This document shows, in pieces, positions 44,297 to 61,565 of a stretch of DNA of 64,000 bases. The DNA lies in the NCBI RefSeq assembly GCF_014842995.1, contig NZ_JACYXL010000003.1, positions 248,001 to 312,000 of the forward strand, written 5' to 3'. Every line of letters starts with the position of its first letter. Positions within the stretch are counted from its first letter, which is position 1. The notes under the pieces were generated by a model. It was not told the DNA's origin. It was given only the letters and a program-made list of their open reading frames with translations, and searched no databases. This DNA is from Rhodanobacter sp. 7MK24. GTDB taxonomy: Bacteria > Pseudomonadota > Gammaproteobacteria > Xanthomonadales > Rhodanobacteraceae. The position numbers and the translations under genes are program-made.

Positions 44297-44323
44297 AATC
44301 TGTTCATGACCTTAGGACTCCGC

Positions 44324-44842
44324 ATGGATTTTCCGCGTACCGCCATCGCCGCCGTCGTGCTCGCCATCGGCCTGCTTGCCTCCACGCCGGCACCAGCCGC
44401 CGACGTCAGCATGGCCAACGGCAGCGTGAACTTCAGCACGCCGGATGGCTGGATGGAGATACTCGAAACCGACGGCGACCCGGAGGTGCGCGCATTCGAA
44501 GTGCCCGACCCTTCGCCCACCGGGCAGGCCGTGCTGGCGCGCGTCACGGTGACCGTGACGCAGATAGCCGGTGTCGACGGCTTCCAGGCCTACCAGAACC
44601 AGGCCACCGCCAAGGCAACGATGCTGCCCAGCTACAAGGCCGTCAACACGACCGACCCGCGCAACGTCAGCTACACCGCACAGGAAGCCGGCGTTGCCTC
44701 CAGCTACCGCGAGCGCTACTGGTTCAAGGACGGCCATGCGATCCAGCTGCGCTGCGTGCGCCCCCAGCAAAGCCAGGCGGGCGCCGCGTGGATCGCTGCC
44801 TTTGACCGCGGCTGCGATGCCATCGCCGCGCGGCTGAAATAA
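44324..44842 (+). CDS. small exported protein of unknown function
   Basis: 172 residues. Sec signal peptide (RTAIAAVVLAIGLLASTPAPAA) with probable cleavage before ADVS. The mature part begins VSMANGSVNFSTPDGWMEI, an opening seen in small periplasmic proteins with a single alpha/beta domain. Two Cys residues (LRCVRP and RGCDAI) could form a disulfide. ATG 44324 has GGACT upstream; ATG 44306 is also in frame. It lies between ACMSD and kynureninase and may be co-transcribed, but no pathway role is evident. Confidence 0.7.
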   Translation: MDFPRTAIAAVVLAIGLLASTPAPAADVSMANGSVNFSTPDGWMEILETDGDPEVRAFEVPDPSPTGQAVLARVTVTVTQIAGVDGFQAYQNQATAKATMLPSYKAVNTTDPRNVSYTAQEAGVASSYRERYWFKDGHAIQLRCVRPQQSQAGAAWIAAFDRGCDAIAARLK

Positions 44843-44873
44843 CCGCTCGGCAGGATCGCGCCCAACGCACGAT

Positions 44874-44933
44874 TGCCTTGTGCCTTGATCGAAGCGCAAA
44901 GCCATCGCGTGCAGAAAGCGTTACGGCAACAGA
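44874..44933. repeat. degenerate REP element
   Basis: AAAGCCATCGCGTGCAGAAA and surrounding bases resemble the inner part and right arm of the 33513-33589 REP doublet with many changes. Probably a decayed copy. Confidence 0.35.
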
Positions 44934-44955
44934 CACACGTTACGCGGGAACCCCG

Positions 44956-46233
44956 ATGTCCGATTACCAAGCCAGCGCCGCCTGGGCGCAAGCCGCCGAT
45001 GCTGCCGATCCGCTGCGCGCGTTCCGCGACGAATTCCTGATACCGCCGCACGAAGGCGGCGACAGCACTTATTTTTGCGGCAATTCGCTGGGCTTGCAGC
45101 CGCGTGTTGTACGCACCGCGCTCGCGGCAGAACTGGATGACTGGGCCGCACTGGGCGTGGAGGGCCACTTCAAGGGCCGCCTGCCATGGATGGACTACCA
45201 CGAATTCGTGCGCGACCACCTGGCCGAAATCGTGGGAGCCAGACCTTCCGAGGTGGTGGCGATGAACACGCTGGGCGTGAACCTGCACCTGATGATGGTG
45301 AGCTTCTACCGCCCCACTCCCGAGCGGGCCGCCATCCTGATGGAAGCGGGTGCTTTTCCCACCGACCGCTATGCGCTGGAATCGCAGATCCACTTCCACG
45401 GCTTCGATCCGGCGGAAGCGCTGATCGAACTGCAGGCCGACGAGTCGAACGGCACGCTGTCGATGGCTGCCATCGAACGCGCGCTGGCTCAGCATGGCTC
45501 GCGCATCGCCCTGGTGATGCTGCCCGGCGTGCAATACCGCACCGGCCAGGCCTTCGACCTCAAGGCCATCACCGAACTCGGCCACCGGCACGGTTGCGTG
45601 GTGGGCTTCGATCTCGCCCACGCGGTAGGCAACCTACCGATCCAATTGCACGACAGCGGCGCCGACTTTGCGATCTGGTGCAGCTACAAGTACCTCAACA
45701 GCGGCCCTGGCGCGGTGGGCGGCGCCTTCGTGCACGAGCGCCACGCGCATGCGGCGCTGCCACGCTTCGCCGGCTGGTGGGGCCACGACAAGACCACCCG
45801 CTTCCGCATGGGCCCCGAATTCGTGCCCACGCCCGGCGCCGACGGCTGGCAGCTGTCCAACCCGCCGATCCTCGCGCTGGCTCCGCTGCGCGTGTCGCTG
45901 GAAATCTTCCATCGCGCCGGCATGGCGAAACTGCGCGAGAAGTCGCTCAAGCTCACCGGCTACCTGGAGTGGCTGGTGCAGACGCAGCTCGCCGATGCGC
46001 TGGAAGTGCTCACGCCCGCCGATCCCGCGCGCCGAGGCTCACAGCTTTCCATCCGGGTGCGCGGCGGTCGCGAGCGTGGCCGCGCGCTGTTCGAATACCT
46101 GATGGAACACGGCGTGATCGGCGATTGGCGCGAACCCGACGTCATTCGCATCTCGCCCGCGCCGCTGTACAACCGCTTCGCGGATTGCCTGAGGTTCGCG
46201 GAAGTGGTGCGCGACTGGCAGCAGGCTGGCTGA
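44956..46233 (+). CDS. kynU: kynureninase
   Basis: 425 residues of the PLP fold-type I family. STYFCGNSLGLQP near the N-terminus, MNTLGVNLHLMMVSFYRP, FDLAHAVGN (PLP-ring Asp) and WCSYKYLNSGPGA with the Schiff-base Lys ~245 are all diagnostic. It hydrolyses kynurenine or 3-hydroxykynurenine to (3-hydroxy)anthranilate and alanine. Together with the upstream ACMSD gene it belongs to the oxidative tryptophan route. GGGAAC precedes ATG 44956. Confidence 0.95.
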   Translation: MSDYQASAAWAQAADAADPLRAFRDEFLIPPHEGGDSTYFCGNSLGLQPRVVRTALAAELDDWAALGVEGHFKGRLPWMDYHEFVRDHLAEIVGARPSEVVAMNTLGVNLHLMMVSFYRPTPERAAILMEAGAFPTDRYALESQIHFHGFDPAEALIELQADESNGTLSMAAIERALAQHGSRIALVMLPGVQYRTGQAFDLKAITELGHRHGCVVGFDLAHAVGNLPIQLHDSGADFAIWCSYKYLNSGPGAVGGAFVHERHAHAALPRFAGWWGHDKTTRFRMGPEFVPTPGADGWQLSNPPILALAPLRVSLEIFHRAGMAKLREKSLKLTGYLEWLVQTQLADALEVLTPADPARRGSQLSIRVRGGRERGRALFEYLMEHGVIGDWREPDVIRISPAPLYNRFADCLRFAEVVRDWQQAG

Positions 46234-48025: not shown

Positions 48026-48931
48026 CTACGCCGCGCCGGCTGCAAGCAACCCTTGCGCAAAGTCACGCACATAATCAAGGAAGCGTGTCTGCACACCGTT
48101 CAACGGGCTGTCCGGCCGATAGACGGCACGCAGGGTGACGTCGAGTTCCAGTTTCAGCGGGCGTGTCTGCAAGGGCTCTTTGCTGCATCGCGCGGTGAAG
48201 GGGTCCACCAGCGCCAGGCCGCCGCCGCGCGCAACCAGCGAGCAGGCCAGCTGGTAGGTCTGCACCCAGACGTGTGCACGCGGGGCGGGTTCGACTTCGG
48301 CAAGGTGGCCGTGCAGCATGTTGCCCATCGCGTCCTGCACCGTGATGCCGATCATCGGCTGGCCAGCAAGCGCGCTGATCGGCAAAGGCTTCGCAAGGTC
48401 GCGTTGCGGCCACCAGCCCGGCGGTGCGATCACCATGATATTGCCGTCGCACAGTGGTTGCTGCACCAGCCCGTGATGGCTCATGTCCTGCAGGGTGAGT
48501 CCGATGTCGCTTTCGCGCAGCATCAGCGACTCGCACATCGCCGCCGAGTGCTGGGTATACAGCTCGATGCTGGTGTCCGGGTAGACCTTGCCCAGCCGCG
48601 CGATCGCGTCGGGCACCAGGGTCTGCGCCAGGGTGGGCGTGCAGGTCACCCGCAACGGATGGCTCTCGGGCCGGGTGATGTTGGCCGAGAGGCGCTGCAG
48701 GTCATACATCTCCTGCATGATGCGGTCGATGTGATGACGCATCAGCAAGGCCTGCTGCGTGGGGTGCAGGCGACCGCGCACCCGGCTGAACAGTGGAAAG
48801 CCCAGGTGGTTTTCGGCCTGCTGCAGAGCCTTGCTCGCGGCGGGCTGCGAGATGTTCAGCAGGTTCGCCGCGCCGGTCAGGCTGCCGGTGCTCAATACGG
48901 CATGGAACAACTCGATGTAGCGCAGTCGCAT
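48026..48931 (-). CDS. LysR-family transcriptional regulator
   Basis: 301 residues. Winged helix-turn-helix at 1-60 (YIELFHAVLSTGSLTGAANLLNISQPAASKALQQAE) and a periplasmic-binding-protein-like effector domain (PLRVTCTPTLAQTLVPDAI...). ATG 48931 is preceded by GGGGAGTGAG; an in-frame upstream extension to 49030 is rejected as too long for the family. It is divergent from dgcN-gltS, and the 217-nt gap holds a T-N11-A type dyad. The same dyad occurs before the TonB receptor and the gamma-glutamyltranspeptidase, so this protein is the best candidate to control all three (inference). The likely inducer is a glutamate-related compound; DgcR plays this role next to dgcN in marine bacteria. Confidence 0.9.
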   Translation of the reverse strand: MRLRYIELFHAVLSTGSLTGAANLLNISQPAASKALQQAENHLGFPLFSRVRGRLHPTQQALLMRHHIDRIMQEMYDLQRLSANITRPESHPLRVTCTPTLAQTLVPDAIARLGKVYPDTSIELYTQHSAAMCESLMLRESDIGLTLQDMSHHGLVQQPLCDGNIMVIAPPGWWPQRDLAKPLPISALAGQPMIGITVQDAMGNMLHGHLAEVEPAPRAHVWVQTYQLACSLVARGGGLALVDPFTARCSKEPLQTRPLKLELDVTLRAVYRPDSPLNGVQTRFLDYVRDFAQGLLAAGAA

Positions 48932-49032
48932 CTCACTCCCCGTCCCGCTTCCGGCATGCTCCGTTCGAGTGCAACACATAACGTTTTTGCAGGCAAACTG
49001 CATGCACATTGCATGCAGACTACGCGACACCT

Positions 49033-49098
49033 ACAACCGCCGGTTATGCCATCTGCCCGTCTTTTCATTGGCGACGCACATCGGCCGCTGACTATGCT
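49033..49098 (+). promoter_or_regulatory. shared LysR-type promoter module, copy A (dgcN-gltS)
   Basis: Dyad ACAACCGCCGGTTAT (49033-49047), 13 bp, CTTTTCATTGG (49061-49071), 21 bp, TATGCT -10 (49093-49098). The predicted start of transcription is near 49105, putting the dyad centre at about -65 and the 11-mer at about -44 to -34, the usual recognition and activation positions of LysR regulators. The leader to ATG 49149 is ~44 nt. Confidence 0.7.
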
Positions 49099-49148
49099 CG
49101 CCGCACCGCGAGAGGCGGAAGTCCACAAACTCTGGAGCGAGTGCCCAC

Positions 49149-50189
49149 ATGTCGAACCAAGGTGCAGAAACCGCAGTCCGCTGGGGGCCGCCGTACCTGC
49201 TGTATCTGGGCAGCGCCGTCGACGATCTGTCGATCAAGACTGCGCGCGGCCTGGCGTTCTGGCGGTCGGAGCATTGCCTCGGGCAGCATCGGCGCCCTGA
49301 TTGCAAAGTGACCCTGGAGCTGCCTGAGCTCGGCTTTGTCCAGGCCAAAGCCATGGGCGCCGACACCATGGTGATCGGCGCGGCGAACGCGGGCGGCGTG
49401 ATGGGCCCCGAGATCGTCGCCGATGCCGTTGCCGCCCTGGACGCCGGACTCAACGTGGTCTCCGGCCTGCACCACAAGCTGCGCGACAACGCCGACATCG
49501 TGGCCGCTGCGCACCGGAACAGCCGCGCGCTGTTCGATGCACGCGCAGCCGGCCCGAACATCCCGGTAGGCAACGGCAAGCCGCGCGCGGGCCGGCGCCT
49601 GCTGACAGTGGGCACGGACTGCTCGGTCGGCAAGATGTACACCACGCTGGCACTGGAGCGCTCAATGCGCGCGCGTGGCCATGCCGCGGATTTCCGCGCC
49701 ACCGGACAGACCGGCATCCTGATCGCCGGCGCAGGCATCCCGGTGGATGCCGTGGTGGCGGACTTCATCTCCGGTGCCGCCGAAGCGATTTCGCCCGCGC
49801 GCGACGACAACGGCTGGGATCTGATCGAAGGCCAGGGCTCGCTGTTCCATCCGTCCTTCGCCGGGGTGTCGCTGGGTCTGCTGCACGGTTCGCAACCCGA
49901 CGCCATCGTGCTCTGCCACGAGCCGACGCGGCGGCACATGCGCGGACTGTCGCACTACCCGCTCCCGGATCTGGTGGCCTGCATGGAAGCCAACCTTGCC
50001 GCCGCGCGGCTGACCAACCCCGCCGTGCAGCCCGTGGGCATCGCCTTGAACACCTCGAAGATGCCTGCACAGGATGCGCAGGCTGCGTGCGAACGGGTCG
50101 CCGCACTGTTCGGGCTGCCCTGCCAGGATCCGGTCACCATGGGTGTCGAAGCCATCGTGGACAACCTCGTCGCGTGCTTCCCCGATTGA
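49149..50189 (+). CDS. dgcN: DUF1611-family protein, probable D-glutamate N-acetyltransferase (DgcN-like)
   Basis: 346 residues. An N-terminal domain (YLLYLGSAVDDLSIKTARGLAFWR ... VIGAANAGGVMGPEIVADA) is followed by a P-loop-like domain with LLTVGTDCSVGKMYTTLALE (motif 155-163). RATGQTGILIAGAGIPVDAVVADF and DLIEGQGSLFHPSFAGVSLGLLHG complete the DUF1611 pattern. DgcN acts on D-glutamate together with the deacetylase DgcA in a reported marine D-glutamate pathway. No dgcA gene is seen here. It is followed after 54 nt by gltS, which supports a glutamate-linked role. Confidence 0.78.
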   Translation: MSNQGAETAVRWGPPYLLYLGSAVDDLSIKTARGLAFWRSEHCLGQHRRPDCKVTLELPELGFVQAKAMGADTMVIGAANAGGVMGPEIVADAVAALDAGLNVVSGLHHKLRDNADIVAAAHRNSRALFDARAAGPNIPVGNGKPRAGRRLLTVGTDCSVGKMYTTLALERSMRARGHAADFRATGQTGILIAGAGIPVDAVVADFISGAAEAISPARDDNGWDLIEGQGSLFHPSFAGVSLGLLHGSQPDAIVLCHEPTRRHMRGLSHYPLPDLVACMEANLAAARLTNPAVQPVGIALNTSKMPAQDAQAACERVAALFGLPCQDPVTMGVEAIVDNLVACFPD

Positions 50190-50243
50190 ACATCCGGCAT
50201 AGTGGCCCTTTCGTGGCCTGATCGCCGCCCGGGACAACCCAGC

Positions 50244-51449
50244 GTGCTGACCCTCGATTCGATCCAGACCCTGGCCTGCGGCGGCGTGTTCCTGCTGGCC
50301 GGTTACATGATCCGGCGGCGCGTGCCGCTGTTGATGCGCTTCAGCATTCCGGCACCCGTGATCGGCGGCCTGCTGGTGGCGCTGTTCATGCTCGCGTGCA
50401 GGCACTGGAACGTCACGCCCTTGCGCTTCGACACCGCGTGGCAGCAACCGCTGATGATCGCGTTCTTCACCGGCATCGGCTTCAACGCCAGCGCAAGCCT
50501 GCTCAAGATCGGCGGCCGCCAGATCCTGCTGTTTCTCACCCTGGCCAGCGTGCTGGCGATCGCGCAGAACTTCCTGGGCATCGCCATGGCCAAGGCCTTC
50601 GGCCTGCCGCCGCTGTTCGGCGTGATCACCGGCTCGGTCACGCTGGCGGGCGGACCCGCCACCGGGATGGCTTTCGCGCCGCTGTTCGAAAAGGTGGGCG
50701 TGCACGGTGCGCAAAGCGTGGCGCTGGCCAATGCAATGGCCGGTATCGTACTCGGCTCCATTTTCGGTTCGCCCATCGCGGCGATGCTGATCGAGCGCTT
50801 CAACTTGCGCCCGGCCATTGCAGTTGACGATATCAGCGCGGACGCGCCTGCGACGATCACGTCCGCCGAACCCGAGCGCGTCATCGACCCGGCCTACGCA
50901 GGACTGAAGACCCTGGTGTTCATGCTGCTGGCGATGGGCATCGGCGCGTGGATCAGCGGCGGCCTGAACCGGCTCGGCGTGACCCTGCCAAGCTACATCG
51001 GCGCCATGCTGGTCGGGGCGGTGATCCGCAACATCGACGACGCCTTGGGCTGGTTTGGCCTGTCGACGCGCGGCATGGAGCTGATCGGCAACACCGCGCT
51101 GTCGCTGTTCCTCGTCGTGGCGCTGATGAACCTGCACCTGTGGGACCTGGCCGGACTGGCGCTGCCGCTGCTGGCGAACCTGGCAGTGCAATCGGTCCTG
51201 GTGCTGGCGTTCTGCTGCTGGCCGCTGCTGCAGCTGATGGGACGCGACTACGACGCTGCCGTGATGGCGAGTGGATTCACCGGCTTCATGCTGGGTACTA
51301 CCGCGAATGCGGTGGCTTGCATGAGTGCGCTGACGGAGCGCTATGGTCCGGCACCGCGGGCGTTTCTGGTGGCGCCGGTGGTGGGGGCGTTCCTGATCGA
51401 TTTCACCAACGCGATCATCATTACGGGGTTCGTCAACGGGTGGCATTGA
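50244..51449 (+). CDS. gltS: sodium/glutamate symporter GltS
   Basis: 401 residues, the same length as E. coli GltS. About ten membrane helices in two inverted halves, with the pore-loop motif GVITGSVTLAGGPATGMAFAP in the first half and GFMLGTTANAVACMSALTERYGPAPRAFLVAPVVGAFLIDFTNA in the second. It imports glutamate (D- and L-forms in E. coli) with Na+. GTG 50244 begins the family N-terminus LTLDSIQTLACGGVFLLAG. It shares the dgcN promoter, which carries copy A of the LysR-type module. Confidence 0.93.
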   Translation: MLTLDSIQTLACGGVFLLAGYMIRRRVPLLMRFSIPAPVIGGLLVALFMLACRHWNVTPLRFDTAWQQPLMIAFFTGIGFNASASLLKIGGRQILLFLTLASVLAIAQNFLGIAMAKAFGLPPLFGVITGSVTLAGGPATGMAFAPLFEKVGVHGAQSVALANAMAGIVLGSIFGSPIAAMLIERFNLRPAIAVDDISADAPATITSAEPERVIDPAYAGLKTLVFMLLAMGIGAWISGGLNRLGVTLPSYIGAMLVGAVIRNIDDALGWFGLSTRGMELIGNTALSLFLVVALMNLHLWDLAGLALPLLANLAVQSVLVLAFCCWPLLQLMGRDYDAAVMASGFTGFMLGTTANAVACMSALTERYGPAPRAFLVAPVVGAFLIDFTNAIIITGFVNGWH

Positions 51450-51904
51450 TGGGCGAGACTTGGACTTTGCGCCCTGGCGCTTGAAGCTTCGAGTCTCGAT
51501 CTCCGAGCGCCGGGCTCTGAGCTTTGAACTCCAAGTTCGACGCTCAGAACCCCAGGTCCCGAGCTTCGAGCTTCGATAACGGAATCGACTGCCCCCTAAT
51601 TCGCAAGGGACAAAGCGGTTTCGGTCGCCTGCCGGCGCCCGAGTCCCTTCTCTTTTCTTCGCTGGCTCACGCCGTCGCAGGAGCGATGGCGAACGGCGGG
51701 GCCGGCCCGAAGGGCGGAGGGCAGGATGCCCGAAGTCAAGAGAAGTGACCCAGAGAAAGGGCCTAGTTCAATCCGCCGGAACTACGAGCAGGCTGTGTCG
51801 AGGAGGTTGGAACCACTCGCGGCGACACGTCCTGCACAGCTGCCACACCTCGCCGTATCTGGGAACTGGGGGCTGGATCCTGGGCCGCTTCGCTCTGCAT
51901 GTCT

Positions 51905-51940
51905 TGCTCGTCATTCCGGCGCAGGCCGGAATGACGAGCA
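51905..51940. repeat. perfect REP hairpin
   Basis: TGCTCGTCATTCCGGC and its exact complement form a 16-bp stem with loop GCAG. It belongs to the same CATTCCGGC family as 35594-35704. Confidence 0.85.
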
Positions 51941-51956
51941 GAGACGCTGGTCCCTC

Positions 51957-52100
51957 GCCCGGCTTTAGCTTGGCCCGGCTTTAGCTTGGCCCGGCTTTAG
52001 CTTGGCCCGGCTTTAGCTTGGCCCGGCTTTAGCTTGGCCCGGCTTTAGCTTGGCCCCGCTTTAGCTTGGCTCTGCTTTAGCTTGGCTCTGCTTTGGTTTG
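51957..52100 (+). repeat. 16-bp minisatellite
   Basis: About eight head-to-tail copies of CCCGGCTTTAGCTTGG, phased at 51964, 51980, 51996 and so on to 52076, then a decayed copy at 52092. The first six or so units are identical and the last three carry CCCCGC and CTCTGC variants. A 16-bp period is not a multiple of three, so it is not coding. Confidence 0.9.
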
Positions 52101-52326
52101 ATTCTGCTCTGGCCGTTGCTTCTGCGCGCAGGGAGCGCGCTGCTCTTCGGGGCCCCTATGCAGCGGTGAGGTGGGGACGATCAGGCCGCGCAGCGGGCGA
52201 GTCCAAGGATGGACTCGCCTTTTCGACCGGGCAGGAAGCCCGGCCGAAAAGCCCGGCCACGCCTCACGCACTCGCAGGGCAGGATGCCCAGAGAGCGCCG
52301 CATCGGGGTGCCCTTTTCTCTTGGCT

Positions 52327-52356
52327 ACTTCTCTTTTGGGCACGCAAAAGAGAAGT
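52327..52356. repeat. ACTTCTCTTTTG hairpin
   Basis: Perfect 12-bp inverted repeat ACTTCTCTTTTG / CAAAAGAGAAGT around loop GGCACG. It is part of a common family of intergenic repeats and not obviously a terminator. Confidence 0.7.
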
Positions 52357-52473
52357 GGCTCGGGCCGCGGCAGCGGCTCGAAACCGCTTTGTTACTTGCG
52401 GAAACCACACGACTTTAAAGAGCAATGCCCTCTCCCGCACGCAAGTGGAAGAAGGGAAATAAAAACGGCTACC

Positions 52474-54363
52474 TCAGTGCTTCGCTGCCAGTATTTCGCT
52501 CAAATAATCCGGCGTCCCCGCCACCCGCACCAGATGCGGATACCTCAGCCCGCCAAAGTAATCCACCGCATACGTCCGACTGATCCCATCCATCTCCGCC
52601 TGGATCTGGATCGGCCGCTTGTCCTTCTGCGCACGCACGATCGCGTCACGCAGGACACGCGGGGTATACGCATGCCCGTCGACCGCCTGCAGTTTCATCT
52701 CCGGCGCGAGTCCGGCCTTGAAGGCGGGCCCCTGCCACAGCACATCCATGATGTTGCCGTCGTGGTTGATGAAGAGGCCTACCGAGAACGTCTCGTCGAC
52801 ACCCGACGCGCTGAACTCGCTCTTGCCCACGTTCTCGACGGCGTTCTGGTAGCGCGAAGGCGTATCGGTGTAGACCAGCTTCCAGCCGCTCTGCTCGATG
52901 CCGGACAGCAGCGGCACCTCGTCGCCCACGCCGTCCATCCAGCCGTGCAGGAATTTCGCCCAGTCCCAGGGCTGCACTGCGTTCAACGCGGCGACGACGT
53001 CGTCGGAGGTGTAGGTCTGGGTGACGTAGCTGCCGTCGTCCTTGCTGAAGAAGCGTTGCGCGAAATCGTCCAGGGTGCGCTTGTCGTGGCTGAGCGCGCG
53101 GATCTTCGTGTCCACGGCCAGCCACAGCAGTTGGCCTTCGCGGTAGAAGTCGGTGCCACGGCGCCAATTCACCCAGCCAAGATCGCCGCCGTAAAGGAGC
53201 TGCGCGGCCCGGGTGGTGTCCGACAAGGGCCGCCATTCGCGGCCCGGACGATGCGCGAACGTCGCCGCGCGATAAGCCAGCGCATCGCGCCAGTCCTGTG
53301 CAGACCACAGGCCGCTGCGCGCGGTCAGCGCATCGCCCAGGTAGACGGTGAGACCTTCGTACACCCATAGCCCGTCGGCGATCTCGGGCTGCTCGAAATC
53401 GGGTTGCCACAGGCCTGCTGGACGCATGAACTTCCCGTTCCACGAGTGCGTGTATTCGTGCGGCAGCAGCGAGCCGTCGAGCATGAAGTGTTCGGGGTCG
53501 GCGAACATGTGCGAACCGCCGCGCGCGCGATCGTCGCTGGACTGGTGGTGCTCCAGGCCGCCGACCGAAGTGTGGTCGCTGAGCGTCAGCAGGAAGTGGT
53601 AGTTGGCGTAGTGGTGCGAATGGAACAGGTTCTGCGCTTGCACGACCAGGTTGCGGTAACCCTCAAGCTGTTCGGGCTTGATCTGCAGCGCGGCCTCACT
53701 GTCGCCCACCAGGTCGAGCCAGCGATGCACGCTGGAATCCGCCGGAGTGACGTCGATCTGCCGGAAATACTGGCCGGCGATCACCGGCGAGTCGACCAGG
53801 GTGTTGAACGGCACGGGCTTGAAGCGGATGCGTCCGCCATCGCGCGCGTCGGTCTCCAATGCCGTGCCGTAACCCCAAGTCGCCGGCATTTCCAGCGTGG
53901 GCCGGAACAGCTGATCCTTGGTTGGCTCGCCTGCACGGTACAGCGCCATGTGATCCCAGGTGAGATCCATCAGGTTCGGCGTGATCCGGTCCGTGTCCGG
54001 GATCTGGAAACGGATGTCGATGCTGCCGACTCCGGCCGGCACATCCAGGTGGAAAGTGAACATGTCCACGGGATCGCGCTGCCACGCGATGCGCCTGCCA
54101 CCGGCGCTGATCTCCAGACCCATCATCGCGCCAATGGGGCCGTCGGGCGCATGGTCCCCGGGAATGTACTTCGGGTAGTACAGCGTGAGCTTGCCCGGCG
54201 CGACAGGCATCGTCTCGTGCACGTAAAACACTTTCTGTGCCGGGTTGGGCAGGGTCACCGTCAATGCAACGACGTTGGCAGGAGCGTTCGTGTCGGCGTG
54301 CGCCGCGCAGGCTGCAGATGCGGCGAGCGCAGCTGCGCCCACCAGTGATGGCCATCGTTTCAT
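52474..54363 (-). CDS. M61-family (glycyl aminopeptidase-like) exported metalloprotease with PDZ domain
   Basis: 629 residues with a Sec signal peptide (VGAAALAASAACAAHA). The M61 zinc site is HEYTHSWNGKFMRPAG (HExxH, His ~302 and ~306), followed by YEGLTVYLGD supplying the third ligand region. The family GGLEH motif and a C-terminal PDZ domain (FINHDGNIMDVLWQGPAFKAGLAPEMKLQAVDGHAY) are present. These enzymes release N-terminal residues, mainly Gly or Ala, from peptides in the periplasm. It is divergent from the TonB receptor, and the shared intergenic region holds copy B of the LysR-type module. The start is 84 nt from that dyad, so joint control is possible. Confidence 0.9.
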   Translation of the reverse strand: MKRWPSLVGAAALAASAACAAHADTNAPANVVALTVTLPNPAQKVFYVHETMPVAPGKLTLYYPKYIPGDHAPDGPIGAMMGLEISAGGRRIAWQRDPVDMFTFHLDVPAGVGSIDIRFQIPDTDRITPNLMDLTWDHMALYRAGEPTKDQLFRPTLEMPATWGYGTALETDARDGGRIRFKPVPFNTLVDSPVIAGQYFRQIDVTPADSSVHRWLDLVGDSEAALQIKPEQLEGYRNLVVQAQNLFHSHHYANYHFLLTLSDHTSVGGLEHHQSSDDRARGGSHMFADPEHFMLDGSLLPHEYTHSWNGKFMRPAGLWQPDFEQPEIADGLWVYEGLTVYLGDALTARSGLWSAQDWRDALAYRAATFAHRPGREWRPLSDTTRAAQLLYGGDLGWVNWRRGTDFYREGQLLWLAVDTKIRALSHDKRTLDDFAQRFFSKDDGSYVTQTYTSDDVVAALNAVQPWDWAKFLHGWMDGVGDEVPLLSGIEQSGWKLVYTDTPSRYQNAVENVGKSEFSASGVDETFSVGLFINHDGNIMDVLWQGPAFKAGLAPEMKLQAVDGHAYTPRVLRDAIVRAQKDKRPIQIQAEMDGISRTYAVDYFGGLRYPHLVRVAGTPDYLSEILAAKH

Positions 54364-54446
54364 GCGTTTCCCCGTGCCTTCGATTGGATCGAGAGATCGC
54401 GAATGAAGCGCACGACGAGAAATTTTTCAAGCGCCAAACGACACGC

Positions 54447-54512
54447 ATAACCCGCAGTTATGGCGGTCCCAAGACTTTTCATTGGCGGCTCTCGCTCGCC
54501 GCGGACTACGCT
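54447..54512 (+). promoter_or_regulatory. shared LysR-type promoter module, copy B (TonB receptor; M61 divergent)
   Basis: Perfect dyad ATAACCCGCAGTTAT (54447-54461), 13 bp, CTTTTCATTGG (54475-54485), 21 bp, TACGCT (54507-54512). It is the only copy with a perfect ATAAC-N5-GTTAT (T-N11-A) dyad. The implied leader to the receptor ATG at 54761 is unusually long, about 240 nt. It contains a GC hairpin (54661-54668 with 54679-54686) and the 14-bp palindrome ATCGTCCGGACGAT (54688-54701). Confidence 0.7.
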
Positions 54513-54760
54513 CGATCAGCACTGTGGGCATGGAGGATGTCCGCTCGATGCGCATCGCTGCCAGACGCAGGGCGAACCCAGGGGACGCCAGCGCCGTGAC
54601 CTGCCGCGATGCCGCCACGTTTCGGCATCTCCACGCCCGCATTCGATCCGACGACACGCACGCGCGCCGCCCATTCTGGGCGCGCGGATCGTCCGGACGA
54701 TGGCACCCGCTTGCGAATCCAGTCGCGATACCCCGCGTTTCACCACAGTGGAGTGAATAC

Positions 54761-57700
54761 ATGAAGGGCAAATCCCAGCGCGTGATGCACCGTAACAACG
54801 TTCTCAAGCGCAAGGCATTGCCCCTTGCCATAGGCCTGCTGGCCTGCGGCGCTGCAGGCACGGCGTGGGCGCAGGCGACCAATGGCACCATCTACGGCAC
54901 GGTGCCGGTGGCACCCGGCGAAACCGTCCAGATCACCAGCGGTAGCGGCTTCAATCGCAGCATTCCGGTGAGCGATTCCGGCAGGTATTCGATCACCCTG
55001 CCGGTGGGCAACTACACGGTATCGCTGCTGCAGAACGGTCAGGTCGTGCAGACCCGCACCGACGTCACGCCGGTGGCGGCAGGTGCGGTGGCGGTCGATT
55101 TCACCTCAGCCGCCGGCGGCCCCGCGAACGCGGTCAACCTCAATTCAATCCGGGTCACGGCCAATACCACCCCGCCGATCGACGTGACCACCACCAACCA
55201 GGTCACCACGATCACCTCAAAGCAGTTGCAGCAGCTGCCGCTGGCGCGCAATGCCGAAGACATCGCCATGCTGGCGCCTGGCGTCAACATGGGCTCACCC
55301 GAGCTCGGCACCGGCCCGCTCGGCACGCCGATGAACGTGTTCGGCGGCGCCTCCACGGCGGAGAACGCTTACTACGTCGATGGCATGAACACTACCGAGG
55401 CTCTCAACAGCTCAGGCGGCATCGCCCTGCCCTATGGCGCCATCGACCAGCAGCAGACCTACATCAGCGGCTACGACGCCCGATATGGACGTTCCATCGG
55501 CGGCGTGATCAACCAGATCGGCAAGAGCGGCACCAATGATTGGCACTTCGGCGTACGCGCGCTGTGGCAACCAGCCAGCATGCGTGCCGACCCGGAAAAC
55601 CTCTACTACGCCAATCCGCTGCTGGCGGGCGACCCGGTCTACTCGCCCGGCGACTTGGCCGTGTACCGCAACGGCAACACCTCCGAGGAAAAGATCTACG
55701 ACGCCTACGTTAGCGGCCCGCTCATCAAGGACAAATTGTTCTTCTTCCTGAGCGCAGAGAAGGACGACAGCACGTATCGCAACACCTCGGAATTCGGCTC
55801 CAGTCCCACCACCACCATAACCAATGAGCAGGATCCGAAGTTCTACGGCAAATTGAACTGGAACATCAACGACAGCAACGTTCTGACCCTAAGTTACCTG
55901 CAGAACTCGCACAGCATGCAAGGCTCGATCTACAACTTCGATTACGACACATTGCAGACCGGCGCCTTCAACAGCTACAACCAAAGTTCCAAGAACGTAT
56001 TCAAGATGGGGGTACTGAACTACACCTCCTACATCACCGACGACCTCACGCTGAATGCCACCTTCGGCAAGATGCACGGCCAGTACTATTCCGTGCAGCC
56101 GGGCTACAACCCCACATTGCCGCACGTCGCTTACGCATCCATGCAAGATCCGGCTTTCGTCCCACCGGGCGGGGTCTCAAACTCGCAGTTCAACTCGACA
56201 CTCAACGACCCCGACCATCGCGAGTCGATCACCAACTACCGCCTCAGCCTCGACTGGAAGCTGGGCAATCATGACTTCCAGGTCGGTATCGACAACATCA
56301 CCTCCTACGATATCGACGACGGTTCCGTAGACACCGGCCCGGGTTACCAGTGGATATATGGCGAAAGCACGGCTGGCCAGCCCGTGTTCGGCACCAATCC
56401 AAACACTCCGCCCTATGTCGCCCCCTCCACCCAGTGCGCCGGCCAGACCTGCTATTACGTACAAAAGCACACCGACATCAGCGCCGCCACCGTACGCGTG
56501 ACGCAGCGTGCGCAATACATCATGGACAACTGGCAGGTCACCCCGAACCTGCTGCTCAACCTCGGCATACGCAACGACCAGTTCGTGAACTACGATGCCT
56601 CCGGCGTGCCCTACATCCGAGAAACCAAGCCGCAATGGGCACCGCGTCTGGGCTTCAGCTGGGACGTGCACGGCGATGCATCGCTGAAGGTGTTCGGCAA
56701 TGCCGGCCGCTACTACCTATCACTGCCGACCAATGTGGCCTTGTCCATTGCCGCCCCGGTGACGAATGCCGGCATCTACGGCACTTACACCGGCATCGAT
56801 CCGGTGACCGGTGTGCCGACCGGTTTCACGCCGCTGCCGCAGAATCCGTCTACGGGTGTGTCGATCGACAGCGAATACGGCCAGGCCAAGGATCCGCGCC
56901 TCTCTGCCGCGAGCAATGCCAAGGCCGAGTTCTCCGACAACTACGTGCTGGGCCTGCAGCAGCAGTTCAACATGTTGGGCACGAACTGGGTGTTCAGCGC
57001 CACCGGCACCTACCAGCGCATGAACCGCATCATCGACGACTTCGACGACGAGCAGATCGAATGCGCGGCCGGCCGTGCGCAGGGCTACTCGTGGATGACG
57101 CCGCAAAACTGCTCCAATTACGCGCAGAGCCTGGTGCTGATCAACCCCGGCGTAACCAATGATATCTGGATGCTGTCACCCAACGGTGCCGCCGTGCCAG
57201 TGACGCTCACCGGCGCCGACCAGGGCTTCCCGAAGGGGCCGGAGCGGCGCTACTACTCGCTGGACCTGTCGCTGGAACACGCATGGGACGGCAAGTGGTT
57301 CGCCAAGTTCGATTACGTATTCTCGCGCAACTGGGGCAATGACGAAGGTCCGGTGAGTACGTATTCGCAACAGGGCGGCTCATACGAATCCATCACCACC
57401 GCCTGGGACTTCCCGGAGCGAATGCAGTATTCAGGTGGCGTGCTTCCGAACAATCGCCCGCACCAGTTCAAGATCTTCGGCTCCTATGCGCTCACGCCGG
57501 AATGGACGGTCGGCGCCAACCTGTACATCACCTCGGGCACGCCGGTGATGTGCCGCGGCGGCTATGGTCCAACCCAGGAACCCCTGCACGGTTCGCACAC
57601 CTATTATTGGTGCGGCGGCATCCCTGTACCACCTGGTTCGCTCGGCTACACCCCGTGGGTGCATGACGTCGACCTCAGCCTGGACTACAAGCCGAAGTGG

Positions 57701-57874
57701 GCACAACAGAAGCTCGACTTCAATCTCGCAGTGTTCAACGTGCTCAACGACCAGACGACGATCTTCTACAACGACTTCTACAGCACCACCTCCACGCCCA
57801 ACCCGGACTACGGCCGCGTGCAGGACACGTACAACCCACGCTACGTGCGTCTTTCGGTTGCCTACGATTTCTGA
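54761..57874 (+). CDS. TonB-dependent outer membrane receptor (Oar-like, CarboxypepD_reg N-terminus)
   Basis: 1,037 residues. Signal peptide (LPLAIGLLACGAAGTAWA), an N-terminal Ig-like carboxypeptidase-regulatory domain (GTIYGTVPVAPGETVQI ... GRYSITLPVGNYTV, ~40-125), then a plug domain (TTITSKQLQQLPLARNAEDIAMLAPGV, AYYVDGMNTTEALNS, YGRSIGGVINQIGKSGTNDWH). A large 22-strand barrel ends in RYVRLSVAYDF. Oar-like receptors take up or bind peptides and other oligomers by TonB energy. GTGGAG precedes ATG 54761. Promoter copy B upstream links it to dgcN-gltS and ggt, so gamma-glutamyl peptides or poly-glutamate are candidate substrates (inference). Confidence 0.92.
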   Translation: MKGKSQRVMHRNNVLKRKALPLAIGLLACGAAGTAWAQATNGTIYGTVPVAPGETVQITSGSGFNRSIPVSDSGRYSITLPVGNYTVSLLQNGQVVQTRTDVTPVAAGAVAVDFTSAAGGPANAVNLNSIRVTANTTPPIDVTTTNQVTTITSKQLQQLPLARNAEDIAMLAPGVNMGSPELGTGPLGTPMNVFGGASTAENAYYVDGMNTTEALNSSGGIALPYGAIDQQQTYISGYDARYGRSIGGVINQIGKSGTNDWHFGVRALWQPASMRADPENLYYANPLLAGDPVYSPGDLAVYRNGNTSEEKIYDAYVSGPLIKDKLFFFLSAEKDDSTYRNTSEFGSSPTTTITNEQDPKFYGKLNWNINDSNVLTLSYLQNSHSMQGSIYNFDYDTLQTGAFNSYNQSSKNVFKMGVLNYTSYITDDLTLNATFGKMHGQYYSVQPGYNPTLPHVAYASMQDPAFVPPGGVSNSQFNSTLNDPDHRESITNYRLSLDWKLGNHDFQVGIDNITSYDIDDGSVDTGPGYQWIYGESTAGQPVFGTNPNTPPYVAPSTQCAGQTCYYVQKHTDISAATVRVTQRAQYIMDNWQVTPNLLLNLGIRNDQFVNYDASGVPYIRETKPQWAPRLGFSWDVHGDASLKVFGNAGRYYLSLPTNVALSIAAPVTNAGIYGTYTGIDPVTGVPTGFTPLPQNPSTGVSIDSEYGQAKDPRLSAASNAKAEFSDNYVLGLQQQFNMLGTNWVFSATGTYQRMNRIIDDFDDEQIECAAGRAQGYSWMTPQNCSNYAQSLVLINPGVTNDIWMLSPNGAAVPVTLTGADQGFPKGPERRYYSLDLSLEHAWDGKWFAKFDYVFSRNWGNDEGPVSTYSQQGGSYESITTAWDFPERMQYSGGVLPNNRPHQFKIFGSYALTPEWTVGANLYITSGTPVMCRGGYGPTQEPLHGSHTYYWCGGIPVPPGSLGYTPWVHDVDLSLDYKPKWAQQKLDFNLAVFNVLNDQTTIFYNDFYSTTSTPNPDYGRVQDTYNPRYVRLSVAYDF

Positions 57875-57894
57875 GCCATGCATGGCCTCCCCAC

Positions 57895-57923
57895 GCGCCG
57901 GGCACTTGCCCGGCGCATTTTTT
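57895..57923 (+). terminator. intrinsic terminator after the TonB receptor
   Basis: GCGCCGGGC and GCCCGGCGC form a 9-bp GC stem with loop ACTT, followed by ATTTTTT (to 57923). It begins 21 nt after the receptor stop and separates the receptor from the TPR-sulfotransferase gene. Confidence 0.88.
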
Positions 57924-57986
57924 GATGTCGAACATCGCTCCTGGCGATTTTTTGCAGCCCGCGGACGACTTGTGTAGCTTGGTGGC

Positions 57987-59582
57987 ATGAGCAGCGAAAC
58001 CACGCATCCCTCGTCCCCGCCTCACGCAGTCGTCCAGTTGCTGGCACGGGCGCGCGCGGAATGGCAGCAACGGCAACCTGATGCCGCAGAGCGTTCTATC
58101 CAGCAGGTGCTGGCGCTCGCCCCCGGCAACGCGGACGCATTGCGGATGCTCGGAGTCATGGCTCAGCACCGCGGCGACCAGACCAAGGCCGTCGACTGTT
58201 TCCGGCGCGTGCTGCCGGTGTGGCCCGACGACTCCGACCTGCATGTAGGGCTGGGCATCGCGTTGCACGAACGCGGCGAGATCGAAGAAGCCTTGGCGCA
58301 CCTTCGGCGCGGCTGCGAATTGGACCCTGCCTCTGCATCAGCCTGGTTCAATCTGGGTGAGGCGCTTTGGCGGCAGGCACACGCCAATGAAGCCATCGGC
58401 GCACTGCGCCGCGCGCTCGAGCTCGTGCCCGCGCATCTCCCTGCTCGCCTGTCATTGGCCAAGGCGCAAGCCAGCCAGGGCCAGATCGATACCGCGGTGG
58501 CCGGCTTCCGCGAGGTGCTCAGGCGCGATCCGGGCAACGCCGAAGCGTGGTTCGGCCTGTCCAACCTCAATACCGTGCGCTTCGACGCCTCCGACGCAGC
58601 TCATCTGCGACAGGCATTGGCGCGTGGCGGGCAATCGCCCCGCCACCACGAACTGCTGGGTTTCTCGCTGGCCAAGGCCCTGGAGGACCAGGGCGATTAC
58701 ACCCAGGCCTTCGACTTGTTCCGGCAAGCCAATGCCTCGCGACGCAAGCGCGTGCACTGGGATGCCGCGGGTGAACGGAGACGGGTGGAGGCGATCCAAC
58801 GCATCTTTGCGCACGACACGCCAGCGCCGCTGGATCCCGCAATGGGCCGCGAAGCCATCTTCATCGTCAGCGTGCCGCGTTCCGGCTCCACCCTGGTCGA
58901 GCAGATCCTGGCCTCGCATCCCGAGGTCGAGGGCGCGAACGAGATCAAGGACCTGTCGCAGGTAATCGACGCGGAAACGCGCCGCCGCCACTCCGCATTC
59001 CCGTTGTGGACGCCGCACGCCAGCGCAACGGACTGGCAACGCCTGGGCAAGGAATACCTCGCGCGCACTGCGCAGTGGCGCAGGACCAAGCCGCGCTTCA
59101 CTGACAAGAGCCTGGTGACCTGGTATCTCGTGGGCGCCGCGCTGGCGATGCTGCCGTCGGCACGCGTGGTGGTGGTGCGACGCGATCCGCTGGAAACCTG
59201 CCTGGCGTGCTTCCGCCAGCTCTTCACCGAGCAGAGCAGCTTCACCTGCGATCTCGACGAGATGGCCGACTACTGCATCGACTTCATCCGCCTGACGCGC
59301 TTCTGGCTGGAGCGTTACCCGGGCCAGGTGTTCGATCTCGAATACGAGACGCTGACCGCCGAGCCCGAGCCGACCATCCGCCGCCTGCTGGATTTCTGTG
59401 GCCTGCCGTTCGATTCGGCCTGCCTGGACTTCCACAAAACCTCGCGTGCCGTGCTGAGCTCGCCCAGTGCCGCGCAAGTGCGGCAACCCATGCGCCGCGA
59501 TACCGCGCGCAGCGCGCGTTACGGCGACAAACTGGATGGCCTGCGCCAACGCCTGCGCAATGCGGGCGTATTGGCGGATTGA
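57987..59582 (+). CDS. TPR-containing sulfotransferase
   Basis: 531 residues. About six TPR units (residues ~15-230; LARARAEWQQRQPDAAERSIQQVLALAPGNADALRMLG is the first) precede a sulfotransferase domain. That domain has the PAPS loop FIVSVPRSGSTLVEQILASHPEVEGANEI (~292 on) and the 3'-phosphate motif ARVVVVRRDPLETCLACFRQLF. No signal peptide. This architecture is regularly found next to Oar-like TonB receptors in Xanthomonadales. The acceptor is unknown, possibly a surface or peptide substrate linked to the receptor. A terminator at 57895-57923 lies upstream, so it probably has its own promoter or receives read-through. Confidence 0.88.
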   Translation: MSSETTHPSSPPHAVVQLLARARAEWQQRQPDAAERSIQQVLALAPGNADALRMLGVMAQHRGDQTKAVDCFRRVLPVWPDDSDLHVGLGIALHERGEIEEALAHLRRGCELDPASASAWFNLGEALWRQAHANEAIGALRRALELVPAHLPARLSLAKAQASQGQIDTAVAGFREVLRRDPGNAEAWFGLSNLNTVRFDASDAAHLRQALARGGQSPRHHELLGFSLAKALEDQGDYTQAFDLFRQANASRRKRVHWDAAGERRRVEAIQRIFAHDTPAPLDPAMGREAIFIVSVPRSGSTLVEQILASHPEVEGANEIKDLSQVIDAETRRRHSAFPLWTPHASATDWQRLGKEYLARTAQWRRTKPRFTDKSLVTWYLVGAALAMLPSARVVVVRRDPLETCLACFRQLFTEQSSFTCDLDEMADYCIDFIRLTRFWLERYPGQVFDLEYETLTAEPEPTIRRLLDFCGLPFDSACLDFHKTSRAVLSSPSAAQVRQPMRRDTARSARYGDKLDGLRQRLRNAGVLAD

Positions 59583-59644
59583 GCGCGGCAAGCCGGAACG
59601 CATGAACTGAAATCCAGCCATCGGTGGGAGCGGCATGCGTGCCC

Positions 59645-59710
59645 ACAACCGCCGGTTATGCCCCTTGCGTGTCTTTTCATTGGAGTGGCCGTCGCACGCA
59701 TGGCTATGCT
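59645..59710 (+). promoter_or_regulatory. shared LysR-type promoter module, copy C (gamma-glutamyltranspeptidase)
   Basis: Dyad ACAACCGCCGGTTAT (59645-59659; identical to copy A over 15 bp), 13 bp, CTTTTCATTGG (59673-59683), 21 bp, TATGCT (59705-59710). Predicted transcription start near 59717 puts the dyad at about -65 and leaves a 22-nt leader to ATG 59739. Confidence 0.72.
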
Positions 59711-59738
59711 GCTGCGACATGGCGAGGAGACTGAACGG

Positions 59739-61565
59739 ATGTCCGACACCAGCACACCGCAGCCACAACGCGGAGCGGACCAGGCGGGACATAGGCGTCG
59801 CGTATTGCCGGAATGGCAACGCCACGTCCTGGCGACTGCGTTCGTCACGTGCTGCCTGCCATTGCACGCGCGCGATGCAAACCCGCCACAAACCGTCGCA
59901 ATGACCAGTGCGCCCGCCTCCACCCAGTCCGCGCTGAAGCAGGCGAAACCGGTCATCGCAAAACACGGCATGGTGGTCAGCGCGCAACACCTGGCCTCCA
60001 TGGTCGGGCTGGACATACTCAAGCGCGGCGGCAACGCCATCGACGCCGCGGTGGCGGTCGGCTACGCCGAGGCCGTGGTGCATCCCTGCTGCGGCAACAT
60101 CGGCGGCGGTGGCTTCATGACCATCCATTTCAAGGACGGCCGCAACGTCTTCCTGGACTTCCGCGAAAAGGCCCCGCTGAAGGCCACGCCGACCATGTTC
60201 CAGGACGCCAAGGGCAACGTGATCCCAGGGCTCAGCACGGACAGCTATCTCGGCGTAGGCGTGCCGGGCACGGTGATGGGGCTGGATGAGGCGCTGAAGA
60301 AATACGGCACGATGTCGCTGCAGCAGGTCATCGCGCCGGCGATCCGGCTGGCCGACGAAGGCTATGTGCTCGAACAGGGCGACGTGGACTTCCTGGACGA
60401 CAGCGCGGAGGATTTCGCCAAGTACCCGAACGTAGCGGCTATCTTCCTCGACCACGGCAAACCCTACGTGGCCGGGCAGCGCCTGGTGCAGAAGCAATTG
60501 GCGCAAACGCTGGAGCAGATCGCAAAGGGCGGCACCGATGCGTTCTACAAGGGGTCGATCGCCCGCAAGCTGGTCGAGGCGAGCGCGGCCAACCACGGCA
60601 TCCTCTCGATGAAGGATTTCGCCGATTACACCGTGCAATGGGACAAGCCGGTGCAGTGCGACTACCGTGGCTACACGATCGTTTCAGCGCCGCCGCCCAG
60701 TTCTGGCGGCGTCACCGTCTGCATGATTCTCAAGCTGGTCGAACCCTATGCGCTCGGCCAATGGGGCTATGGGTCGGTCAAAAGCCTGCACTACCTGGTC
60801 GAAGCAGAGCGTCGTGCCTTCGCCGACCGCAATACCTACCTCGGCGATCCGGCCTTCGCGCACAACCCAGTCGACCGGCTGCTTTCCGCCGGCCACCTGG
60901 CCGAAATCAGGGCCGGCATCCAGCCCGACAAGGCCACGCCTTCGTCCGATATCAAGGGCAGCCTGGGGCAGCCCGAGGGCACCCACACGACGCACTACTC
61001 GGTGATCGACAAGGACGGCAACGCCGTCGCGGTGACCTACACCATCAACTACCTGTTCGGCATCCGCCAGATCGCCGGCGACACCGGCTTCTTCCTCAAC
61101 GACGAGATGGACGACCTCACCGGCAAGCCCGGCGTGGCGAACGGCGCCGGCCTGGTGCAGGGCGTGGTCAACCAGGTCGAACCCGGCAAGCGCCCGCTGA
61201 GTTCGATGACGCCCACCATCGTGCTGCGCGACGGCAAGCCGTTCCTGCTGACCGGCAGCCCCGGCAGCGCGACGATCATCTCGACCACGATGGAAAGCAT
61301 CGTCAACGTGATCGATTTCGGCATGAACGTGCAGCAGGCGATCGACGCGCCGCGTATGCACCATCAATGGTATCCCGACGTCGTCTACATCGAGCCCGGG
61401 CTGGTGACACCGCAGACCCGCAAGGCCCTGGAGGCCATGGGCTACCAGTTCGAGATGCGCAAGGGGATCGGCGATGACGAGGCCATCCTTATCGATCCCC
61501 GCACCGGACTCCGGGAAGGCGCCAGCGACCCCAGAACGCCTGCCGGTCTGGCCGCAGGCTACTGA
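59739..61565 (+). CDS. ggt: gamma-glutamyltranspeptidase (glutathione hydrolase)
   Basis: 608 residues. N-terminal export signal after a basic stretch (HVLATAFVTCCLPLHA). The large subunit contains KRGGNAIDAAVAVGYAEAVVHPCCGNIGGGGFM. Self-cleavage is expected before Thr ~417 in THTTHYSVIDKDGNAVAVTYTINYLFG, and the small subunit has TGSPGSATIISTTMESIVNVIDFG with the oxyanion Gly-Gly/Ser region. It removes or transfers gamma-glutamyl groups from glutathione, gamma-glutamyl peptides or poly-gamma-glutamate in the periplasm, releasing glutamate. ATG 59739 with GAGGAG upstream is chosen; an in-frame ATG at 59658 lies inside promoter copy C and cannot be the start. Regulation is probably by the LysR protein at 48026-48931. 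Confidence 0.93.
   Translation: MSDTSTPQPQRGADQAGHRRRVLPEWQRHVLATAFVTCCLPLHARDANPPQTVAMTSAPASTQSALKQAKPVIAKHGMVVSAQHLASMVGLDILKRGGNAIDAAVAVGYAEAVVHPCCGNIGGGGFMTIHFKDGRNVFLDFREKAPLKATPTMFQDAKGNVIPGLSTDSYLGVGVPGTVMGLDEALKKYGTMSLQQVIAPAIRLADEGYVLEQGDVDFLDDSAEDFAKYPNVAAIFLDHGKPYVAGQRLVQKQLAQTLEQIAKGGTDAFYKGSIARKLVEASAANHGILSMKDFADYTVQWDKPVQCDYRGYTIVSAPPPSSGGVTVCMILKLVEPYALGQWGYGSVKSLHYLVEAERRAFADRNTYLGDPAFAHNPVDRLLSAGHLAEIRAGIQPDKATPSSDIKGSLGQPEGTHTTHYSVIDKDGNAVAVTYTINYLFGIRQIAGDTGFFLNDEMDDLTGKPGVANGAGLVQGVVNQVEPGKRPLSSMTPTIVLRDGKPFLLTGSPGSATIISTTMESIVNVIDFGMNVQQAIDAPRMHHQWYPDVVYIEPGLVTPQTRKALEAMGYQFEMRKGIGDDEAILIDPRTGLREGASDPRTPAGLAAGY

Follow-up and report, generated by a model that had tools for sequence, protein, structure and literature searches.

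What do a gene for a D-glutamate N-acetyltransferase, a gene for a TonB-dependent receptor and a gene for a gamma-glutamyltransferase (GGT) have in common, that each should follow the same promoter module? This question is raised by a 64,000-nucleotide stretch of the Rhodanobacter sp. 7MK24 genome (contig NZ_JACYXL010000003.1, positions 248,001 to 312,000; here, the window). An original prediction, made from the sequence alone, held that one LysR-type regulator governs the three transcription units concerned: dgcN-gltS, the receptor unit and ggt. We propose, with a probability of about 0.82, that a DguR-type LysR protein encoded at 48026-48940 jointly activates all three, its ligand most likely being D-glutamate. 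In window coordinates, the modules are as follows.

49033..49098, forward strand: module A, with dyad 49033-49047, CTTTTCATTGG 49061-49071 and TATGCT 49093-49098; predicted +1 at 49105
54447..54512, forward strand: module B, with dyad 54447-54461, CTTTTCATTGG 54475-54485 and TACGCT 54507-54512; predicted +1 at 54519
59645..59710, forward strand: module C, with dyad 59645-59659, CTTTTCATTGG 59673-59683 and TATGCT 59705-59710; predicted +1 at 59717

The putative regulator gene and the genes that follow the modules are these, with DgcN, GltS and GGT all passing curated cut-offs.

48026..48940, reverse strand: lysR, DguR-type regulator of 304 residues, with Pfam HTH_1 and LysR_substrate domains
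49149..50189, forward strand: dgcN, D-glutamate N-acetyltransferase family, NCBIfam equivalog NF041892 at 508.9 bits (cut-off 480), a relative of PDB 7xrj
50202..51449, forward strand: gltS, sodium/glutamate symporter, TIGR00210 at 334.1 bits (cut-off 310.75)
54641..57874, forward strand: TonB-dependent receptor, Pfam PF25183, PF00593 and PF07715
59739..61565, forward strand: ggt, gamma-glutamyltransferase, TIGR00066 at 579.1 bits (cut-off 357.85), residues 70-608 aligning to PDB 2e0w

Every block and spacing that had been claimed for the three copies was verified: a 15-bp dyad, 13 bp, the 11-bp element CTTTTCATTGG, 21 bp and TAYGCT. The claim of a shared dyad type stands in that each copy has a 15-bp dyad; the centre of copy B differs (CCGCAG). 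The composite pattern, allowing up to 3 mismatches, matches exactly three places in the window, with 0 expected by chance (100 shuffles). In the 4.15-Mb genome, CTTTTCATTGG occurs three times, always within a module (the reversed control occurs 5 times), and the proposed genome-wide search with a gapped motif, run with the dyad and element at up to 3 mismatches, returned modules A to C and nothing else. Given the shuffles and the confinement of CTTTTCATTGG to the modules, a chance origin was rejected.

The layout of the module points to the kind of protein that may work it. Classical LysR-type activators bind a T-N11-A dyad near -65 and a second site near -35. When +1 is set 7 bp downstream of TAYGCT, an assumption behind all promoter positions given here, position arithmetic places the dyad centre at -65 and the 11-bp element at -44 to -34 in all three modules, which matches the promoter layout of LysR activators. 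The fit had been described as exact for copies A and C; it holds for all three, and lysR is indeed divergent from module A, as in the classical systems. Unlike those systems, in which there is one divergent pair, several near-identical promoters occur here per genome. Ordinary sigma-70 promoters were rejected as an explanation, since a scan for them found 0 (1.8 in shuffles); the module promoters have a good -10 (TATGCT) and no recognisable -35.

We then compared the module across a family set of 233 Rhodanobacteraceae genomes, 7MK24 included. The dyad-element pattern (up to 2 mismatches) is present in 58 of the 233, and its reversed control gave 2 matches in all. Forty regions (L133-L172) were read from 25 motif-bearing relatives, picked for having sites, and together with the window they yielded 82 sites under a slightly wider pattern. 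These sites were selected by dyad and element, so that only the -10 spacing and the remaining columns are independent observations. The spacing proved strict: TAnnnT lies 21 bp behind the element at 74 of the 82 sites, 20 bp at 5 and 19 bp at 2, and at no other offset between 12 and 31 bp at any of the 82.

The same gene kinds recur behind the module. Sixty-two of the 82 sites precede, at 54 to 403 bp, a homologue of the window receptor (25 sites), DgcN (19) or GGT (18, some of them only 34-41% identical). An identified gene lies downstream on the same strand at 79 sites in all, the 17 beyond these 62 being accounted for by a second (10) and a third (1) TonB receptor family, two pairs of amidohydrolases (2+2), an SSF symporter (1) and an amino acid permease (1). 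The queries for these 17 came from the very genes that follow sites, so that their assignment is circular and the evidence is limited to the 62 sites matched by window proteins. We take the amidohydrolases to be D-aminoacylase-like (2, below the NCBIfam cut-off) and YtcJ-like (2). Three sites fall outside the distance rule: at two, the gene as cut starts inside the site (transglutaminase-like and beta-lactamase-family, respectively), and at the third the gene is TonB-receptor-like by similarity clustering. In six relatives (G003, G023, G063, G147, G194 and G197), a site is separated from the LysR cluster by more than 200 kb or by a contig boundary, the latter being limited by draft assembly, as the two contigs of G063 could adjoin. 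These remote sites precede receptor, ggt or amidohydrolase genes, the same gene kinds as elsewhere, as is characteristic of a regulon and not of a single conserved island.

The dyad arms of the 82 sites covary: CACAAC/GTTATG at 43, CATAAC/GCTATG at 15, CATAAC/GTTATG at 10, CACAAC/GCTATG at 1 and other pairs at 13. By these counts, the symmetry of the dyad is broken in 58 of the 82 by a single base in a single arm. TonB-receptor-type genes follow 13 of the 17 sites with GCTATG.

One could suppose that the three copies are a repeat, or a recently duplicated promoter cassette, with no common regulation, and the identical short 11-mers near one another speak for this. The 60-bp flanks of modules A, B and C are only 23-37% identical, however, which speaks against recent duplication and led us to reject a duplicated cassette. 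The strict spacing over 82 sites, the same-strand gene downstream of 79 of them and the cross-genus data also oppose it, as does the finding that a shifted, one-base-longer element matches nothing in the 233 genomes (up to 1 mismatch). We consider this explanation very improbable. The original prediction had argued likewise from differing sequence between the blocks. Its conclusion stands on the flanks, but the spacers are not wholly unlike (62% identity between A and B over the 21-bp spacer, 58% between A and C over 12 bp), and parts of both are themselves conserved in the comparison of the 82 sites.

Which regulator, then, goes with the module? Orthologues of the window LysR (E <= 1e-90) are found in 44 of the 233 genomes, 7MK24 included. 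The pattern (up to 2 mismatches) is present in all 44, versus 14 of the 189 LysR-negative genomes, several of the latter matches being doubtful (Fisher p 1e-35, kinship ignored). Seven of these 14 (G119, G188, G030, G214, G215, G223 and G231) have single 2-mismatch sites among the matches listed, and four others (G250, G251, G253 and G254) have their sites outside the matches listed. The remaining three (G065, G066 and G237) have clustered sites and no full LysR hit; in G066 and G237 the sites adjoin LysR fragments at contig ends (L099 and L080, paired by site position and sequence), and in G065 no LysR was found. Within the regions read, the LysR is present in 24 of the 25 relatives, with a contig-end fragment in the 25th.

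A tie of the motif to DgcN rather than to the LysR was rejected on the genomes that have the one and not the other. DgcN matches occur in 57 genomes: all 44 with the LysR and 13 without a full LysR hit. Among these 13, a site with at most 1 mismatch is found in G237 alone, beside the contig-end LysR fragment, and relaxing to 2 mismatches raises the count to three by adding G030 and G223, with one site each. The module thus follows the LysR, not DgcN.

It could still be argued that another regulator or sigma-factor promoter class uses the module and that the LysR is merely a neighbour, given that the LysR and its presumed targets are usually linked. This would have to account for the fit of dyad and element to the LysR layout, for the single close site among the 13 genomes that have DgcN but no full LysR hit, and for the presence of the module with LysR homologues in other families, beside different genes. 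We regard it as improbable; the LysR-type regulator encoded nearby very probably acts on the module.

A wider contig scan gave matches amounting to 99 stretches, reported as 80 loci, and all 80 were read. Outside the family, LysR homologues with 37-51% identity occur in five stretches from Pseudomonas, in those from Aquitalea and Solimonas, and in one of the two from Hydrocarboniphaga; where one of the Pseudomonas stretches is truncated, the LysR match is 61% identical over 103 residues. The stretches from Spirochaetales, Owenweeksia, Sulfurimonas, Roseivirga and Paraburkholderia have no such LysR match and look like chance, though the Paraburkholderia stretch, judged by eye, encodes a different LysR-like protein. 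One Pseudomonas and one Aquitalea case were tested, and in both the module is followed by a gene for a DAO-family FAD oxidoreductase. Five to six sites per genome (up to 2 mismatches) occur in G263 (contig C6; L108, Solimonas), G264 (L044, Hydrocarboniphaga) and G266 (contig C180; L061, a metagenome-assembled genome), several of them carrying CAATTCATTGG or CTATTCATTGG; these may form a distinct regulon of this kind.

Within the genus Pseudomonas, the window LysR finds matches in 47 of 79 genomes. Among 30 loci fetched, a DAO-family oxidoreductase gene is divergent from lysR in the 25 best and not in the other 5 (the Pfam assignment was made for three of the proteins). At these 25 dguRA-like promoters, with a match threshold of 6 of 10 letters, the dyad-element spacing is the same in 25 of 25, and the -10 is in register in 22 and one base off in 3. 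Downstream, a RidA gene was confirmed at 2 loci and a binding-protein gene at 2 (SBP_bac_3 and NMT1-like), both kinds occurring together at one. The one Pseudomonas DguR-type protein tested is a reciprocal best match of the window LysR (40% identity, 222 bits versus 52 for the next).

These loci seem to resemble the dguRABC arrangement. He et al. (2014, Microbiology 160:2331) reportedly described dguRABC in P. aeruginosa, where DguR is said to sense D-glutamate and bind a conserved site. Regulation of the dguA promoter by DguR in D-glutamate catabolism is stated in the available text of PMC10926688, and the 2014 work on DguR and dguRABC is cited in the accessible parts of PMC6131576, PMC6965332 and PMC7962211. 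The Rhodanobacter system is like dguRABC in its LysR (homologues 39-49% identical), its divergent arrangement and an operator-promoter spacing common to all 25 dguRA-like loci. It differs in its apparent targets, which are dgcN-gltS, the TonB receptor unit and ggt where dguRABC has an oxidoreductase operon, and in having three promoters rather than one. The oxidoreductase genes divergent from the best LysR homologues and the shared spacing at 25 of 25 Pseudomonas promoters are why this looks like a DguR-type D-glutamate regulon, seemingly rewired and enlarged in Rhodanobacteraceae. We write "DguR-type" and not DguR because no dguA (with dguB and dguC) adjoins the window lysR, which is divergent from dgcN-gltS instead, and because the tree supports its deep nodes weakly and sets most of the Pseudomonas proteins on a separate branch.

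How the regulon may work can be sketched from these comparisons. We infer that two LysR dimers would bind, one at the T-N11-A dyad (-65) and the other at CTTTTCATTGG (-44 to -34), and that the ligand-bound protein would help RNA polymerase at promoters with no recognisable -35, switching on dgcN-gltS, the receptor unit and ggt together. The ligand would most likely be D-glutamate. The receptor may import gamma-glutamyl or D-glutamate-containing peptides, from which a presumably periplasmic GGT would release glutamate; GltS would carry this inward, and DgcN would acetylate the D-glutamate for conversion.

Several points weigh against this proposal. In most cases the LysR gene shares an island with the sites, and part of the co-occurrence is therefore shared inheritance. 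The tree does not place the window LysR with the main Pseudomonas DguR branch at good support: 22 of the 23 Pseudomonas dguA-linked rows labelled DguR form a branch of their own, one row lies nearer the window clade, the deep nodes are weak, and paralogues lacking dguA form a group in between. The best NCBIfam model for the window LysR is NF008239, which scores far below its cut-off; as we take this model to represent E. coli LysR, which senses diaminopimelate, that compound is another candidate for the ligand. Finally, no dgcA is present in the window cluster, nor has the 7MK24 genome a DgcA match over the cut-off (best 165.6 bits, cut-off 400), which leaves D-glutamate acetylation an incomplete pathway in this organism.

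The strongest rival grants the same LysR regulon and changes the signal: another cell-wall amino acid or peptide (diaminopimelate, D-alanine or a muropeptide) or a gamma-glutamyl compound would be sensed, D-glutamate being one product only. NF008239 as the best model, albeit below cut-off, agrees with this, as do the lysA-type genes in the clusters of 6 of 25 relatives and the ggt and peptidase genes of the cluster itself. The DgcN match in all 44 LysR genomes and the DAO-family oxidoreductase divergent at 25 Pseudomonas loci speak for D-glutamate instead, and we hold a different ligand to be possible but doubtful.

The clusters of the relatives include dgcA, lysA and DadA-like genes. The DgcN-DgcA D-glutamate pathway is reportedly the subject of Yu et al. 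(2023, ISME J 17:537). It is discussed in the available text of PMC12363236 and PMC10845958. D-glutamate acetylation, as originally predicted, is borne out for DgcN, an equivalog over its cut-off, and falls short for its partner. A dgcA homologue lies within the cluster in 13 of the 22 relatives whose dgcN surroundings were read and is absent in 9 (G217, G236 and G237 are left out of the dgcA distance counts); relatives with no dgcA beside dgcN include G003, G006, G010 and G013 (L162, L157, L165 and L159). The L140 copy of dgcA passes its curated cut-off. The system is thus like the DgcN-DgcA pathway in its DgcN and in the DgcA homologues of those 13 clusters, and unlike it in lacking a DgcA over the cut-off here and in setting dgcN in a regulon with a receptor and GGT.

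The best racemase-like protein of the 7MK24 genome (C36:91015-91968, L173) was rejected as a substitute for DgcA, being far below the DgcA cut-off. Its gene is flanked by an NlpC/P60-like gene and an RpiR-like regulator (by eye, from translations), neighbours that make L173 likely to be a muropeptide recycling locus. Homologues of lysA-type diaminopimelate decarboxylase genes stand behind dgcN-dgcA in L135, L137, L140, L142, L166 and L168, with ggt between dgcN-dgcA and the lysA-type gene in four of these six clusters; the L140 lysA copy passes TIGR01048. In L135, L136 and L140, the YtcJ-like amidohydrolase gene is followed by DadA-like genes (37-39% identity).

Three further features belong to the window cluster.

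52474..54363, reverse strand: M61 peptidase (Pfam PF05299/PF17899), divergent from module B, a recurrent neighbour of the receptor module; regulon membership uncertain
57895..57916, forward strand: terminator-like hairpin between the receptor and sulfotransferase genes, from a consensus scan only
57987..59582, forward strand: TPR-sulfotransferase gene adjoining the receptor gene, Pfam PF13469 plus TPR, placed by synteny

The M61 gene had been counted as part of the circuit. In the regions read it is often the divergent neighbour of the receptor module and never the nearest gene behind a site, so that adjacency is what remains of that claim. The TPR-sulfotransferase gene between the receptor gene and ggt, which the original prediction passed over, stands 3' of the receptor gene in the regions read. 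The hairpin is GC-rich with a T run and lies within the supposed receptor-sulfotransferase operon. For the receptor, presumably, the label "Oar-like" would apply. Near lysR, ACMSD-like amidohydrolase and kynureninase genes are present in the window (43274-46233) and in the G003, G005, G006 and G013 regions.

Taken together, genome comparison supports the core of the original prediction, one LysR and one module for three transcription units; the parts concerning the kind of regulator, M61 and acetylation fall short. The joined circuit had been called unfamiliar. The regulator is of a known kind, as its reciprocal match to a Pseudomonas DguR-type protein indicates, and what is new is the joined set of targets. 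A partial parallel is P. aeruginosa aatJ-aatQMP with ansB and ggt under AauR/RpoN, where, going by the accessible text of PMC7962211, a ggt gene is probably coupled to glutamate uptake, as here; control there is by a two-component system and RpoN, the transporter is different, and neither DgcN nor a TonB receptor is named in that part of the account. No description of the joined circuit was found among the papers listed in the literature searched, mostly without subscription papers, which is weak evidence of absence.

What might such a circuit be for? Tentatively, a DguR-type D-glutamate sensor may have been turned into a master switch for scavenging cell-wall peptides in Rhodanobacteraceae. 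Stem peptides of peptidoglycan, or poly-gamma-glutamate, would enter through outer-membrane receptors, M61 would trim the amino end of the peptides, and periplasmic GGT would split the gamma-D-glutamyl bond, parting D-glutamate from diaminopimelate. D-glutamate would enter via GltS and pass to DgcN, diaminopimelate going to LysA in genera with a cluster lysA, and the entire route would answer to one sensor of the freed D-glutamate. Acetylation would have taken the place of the oxidative DguA step, with the operator nearly unchanged.

For the family, the 66-bp signature provides a search handle for a likely D-glutamate regulon, and for many related bacteria it hints at the signal to which TonB receptors, GGTs, amidohydrolases and permeases without a known substrate may respond. 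The comparison further suggests that regulator and operator were kept as a pair while the chemistry under its control changed, from an oxidoreductase in Pseudomonas to N-acetylation here.

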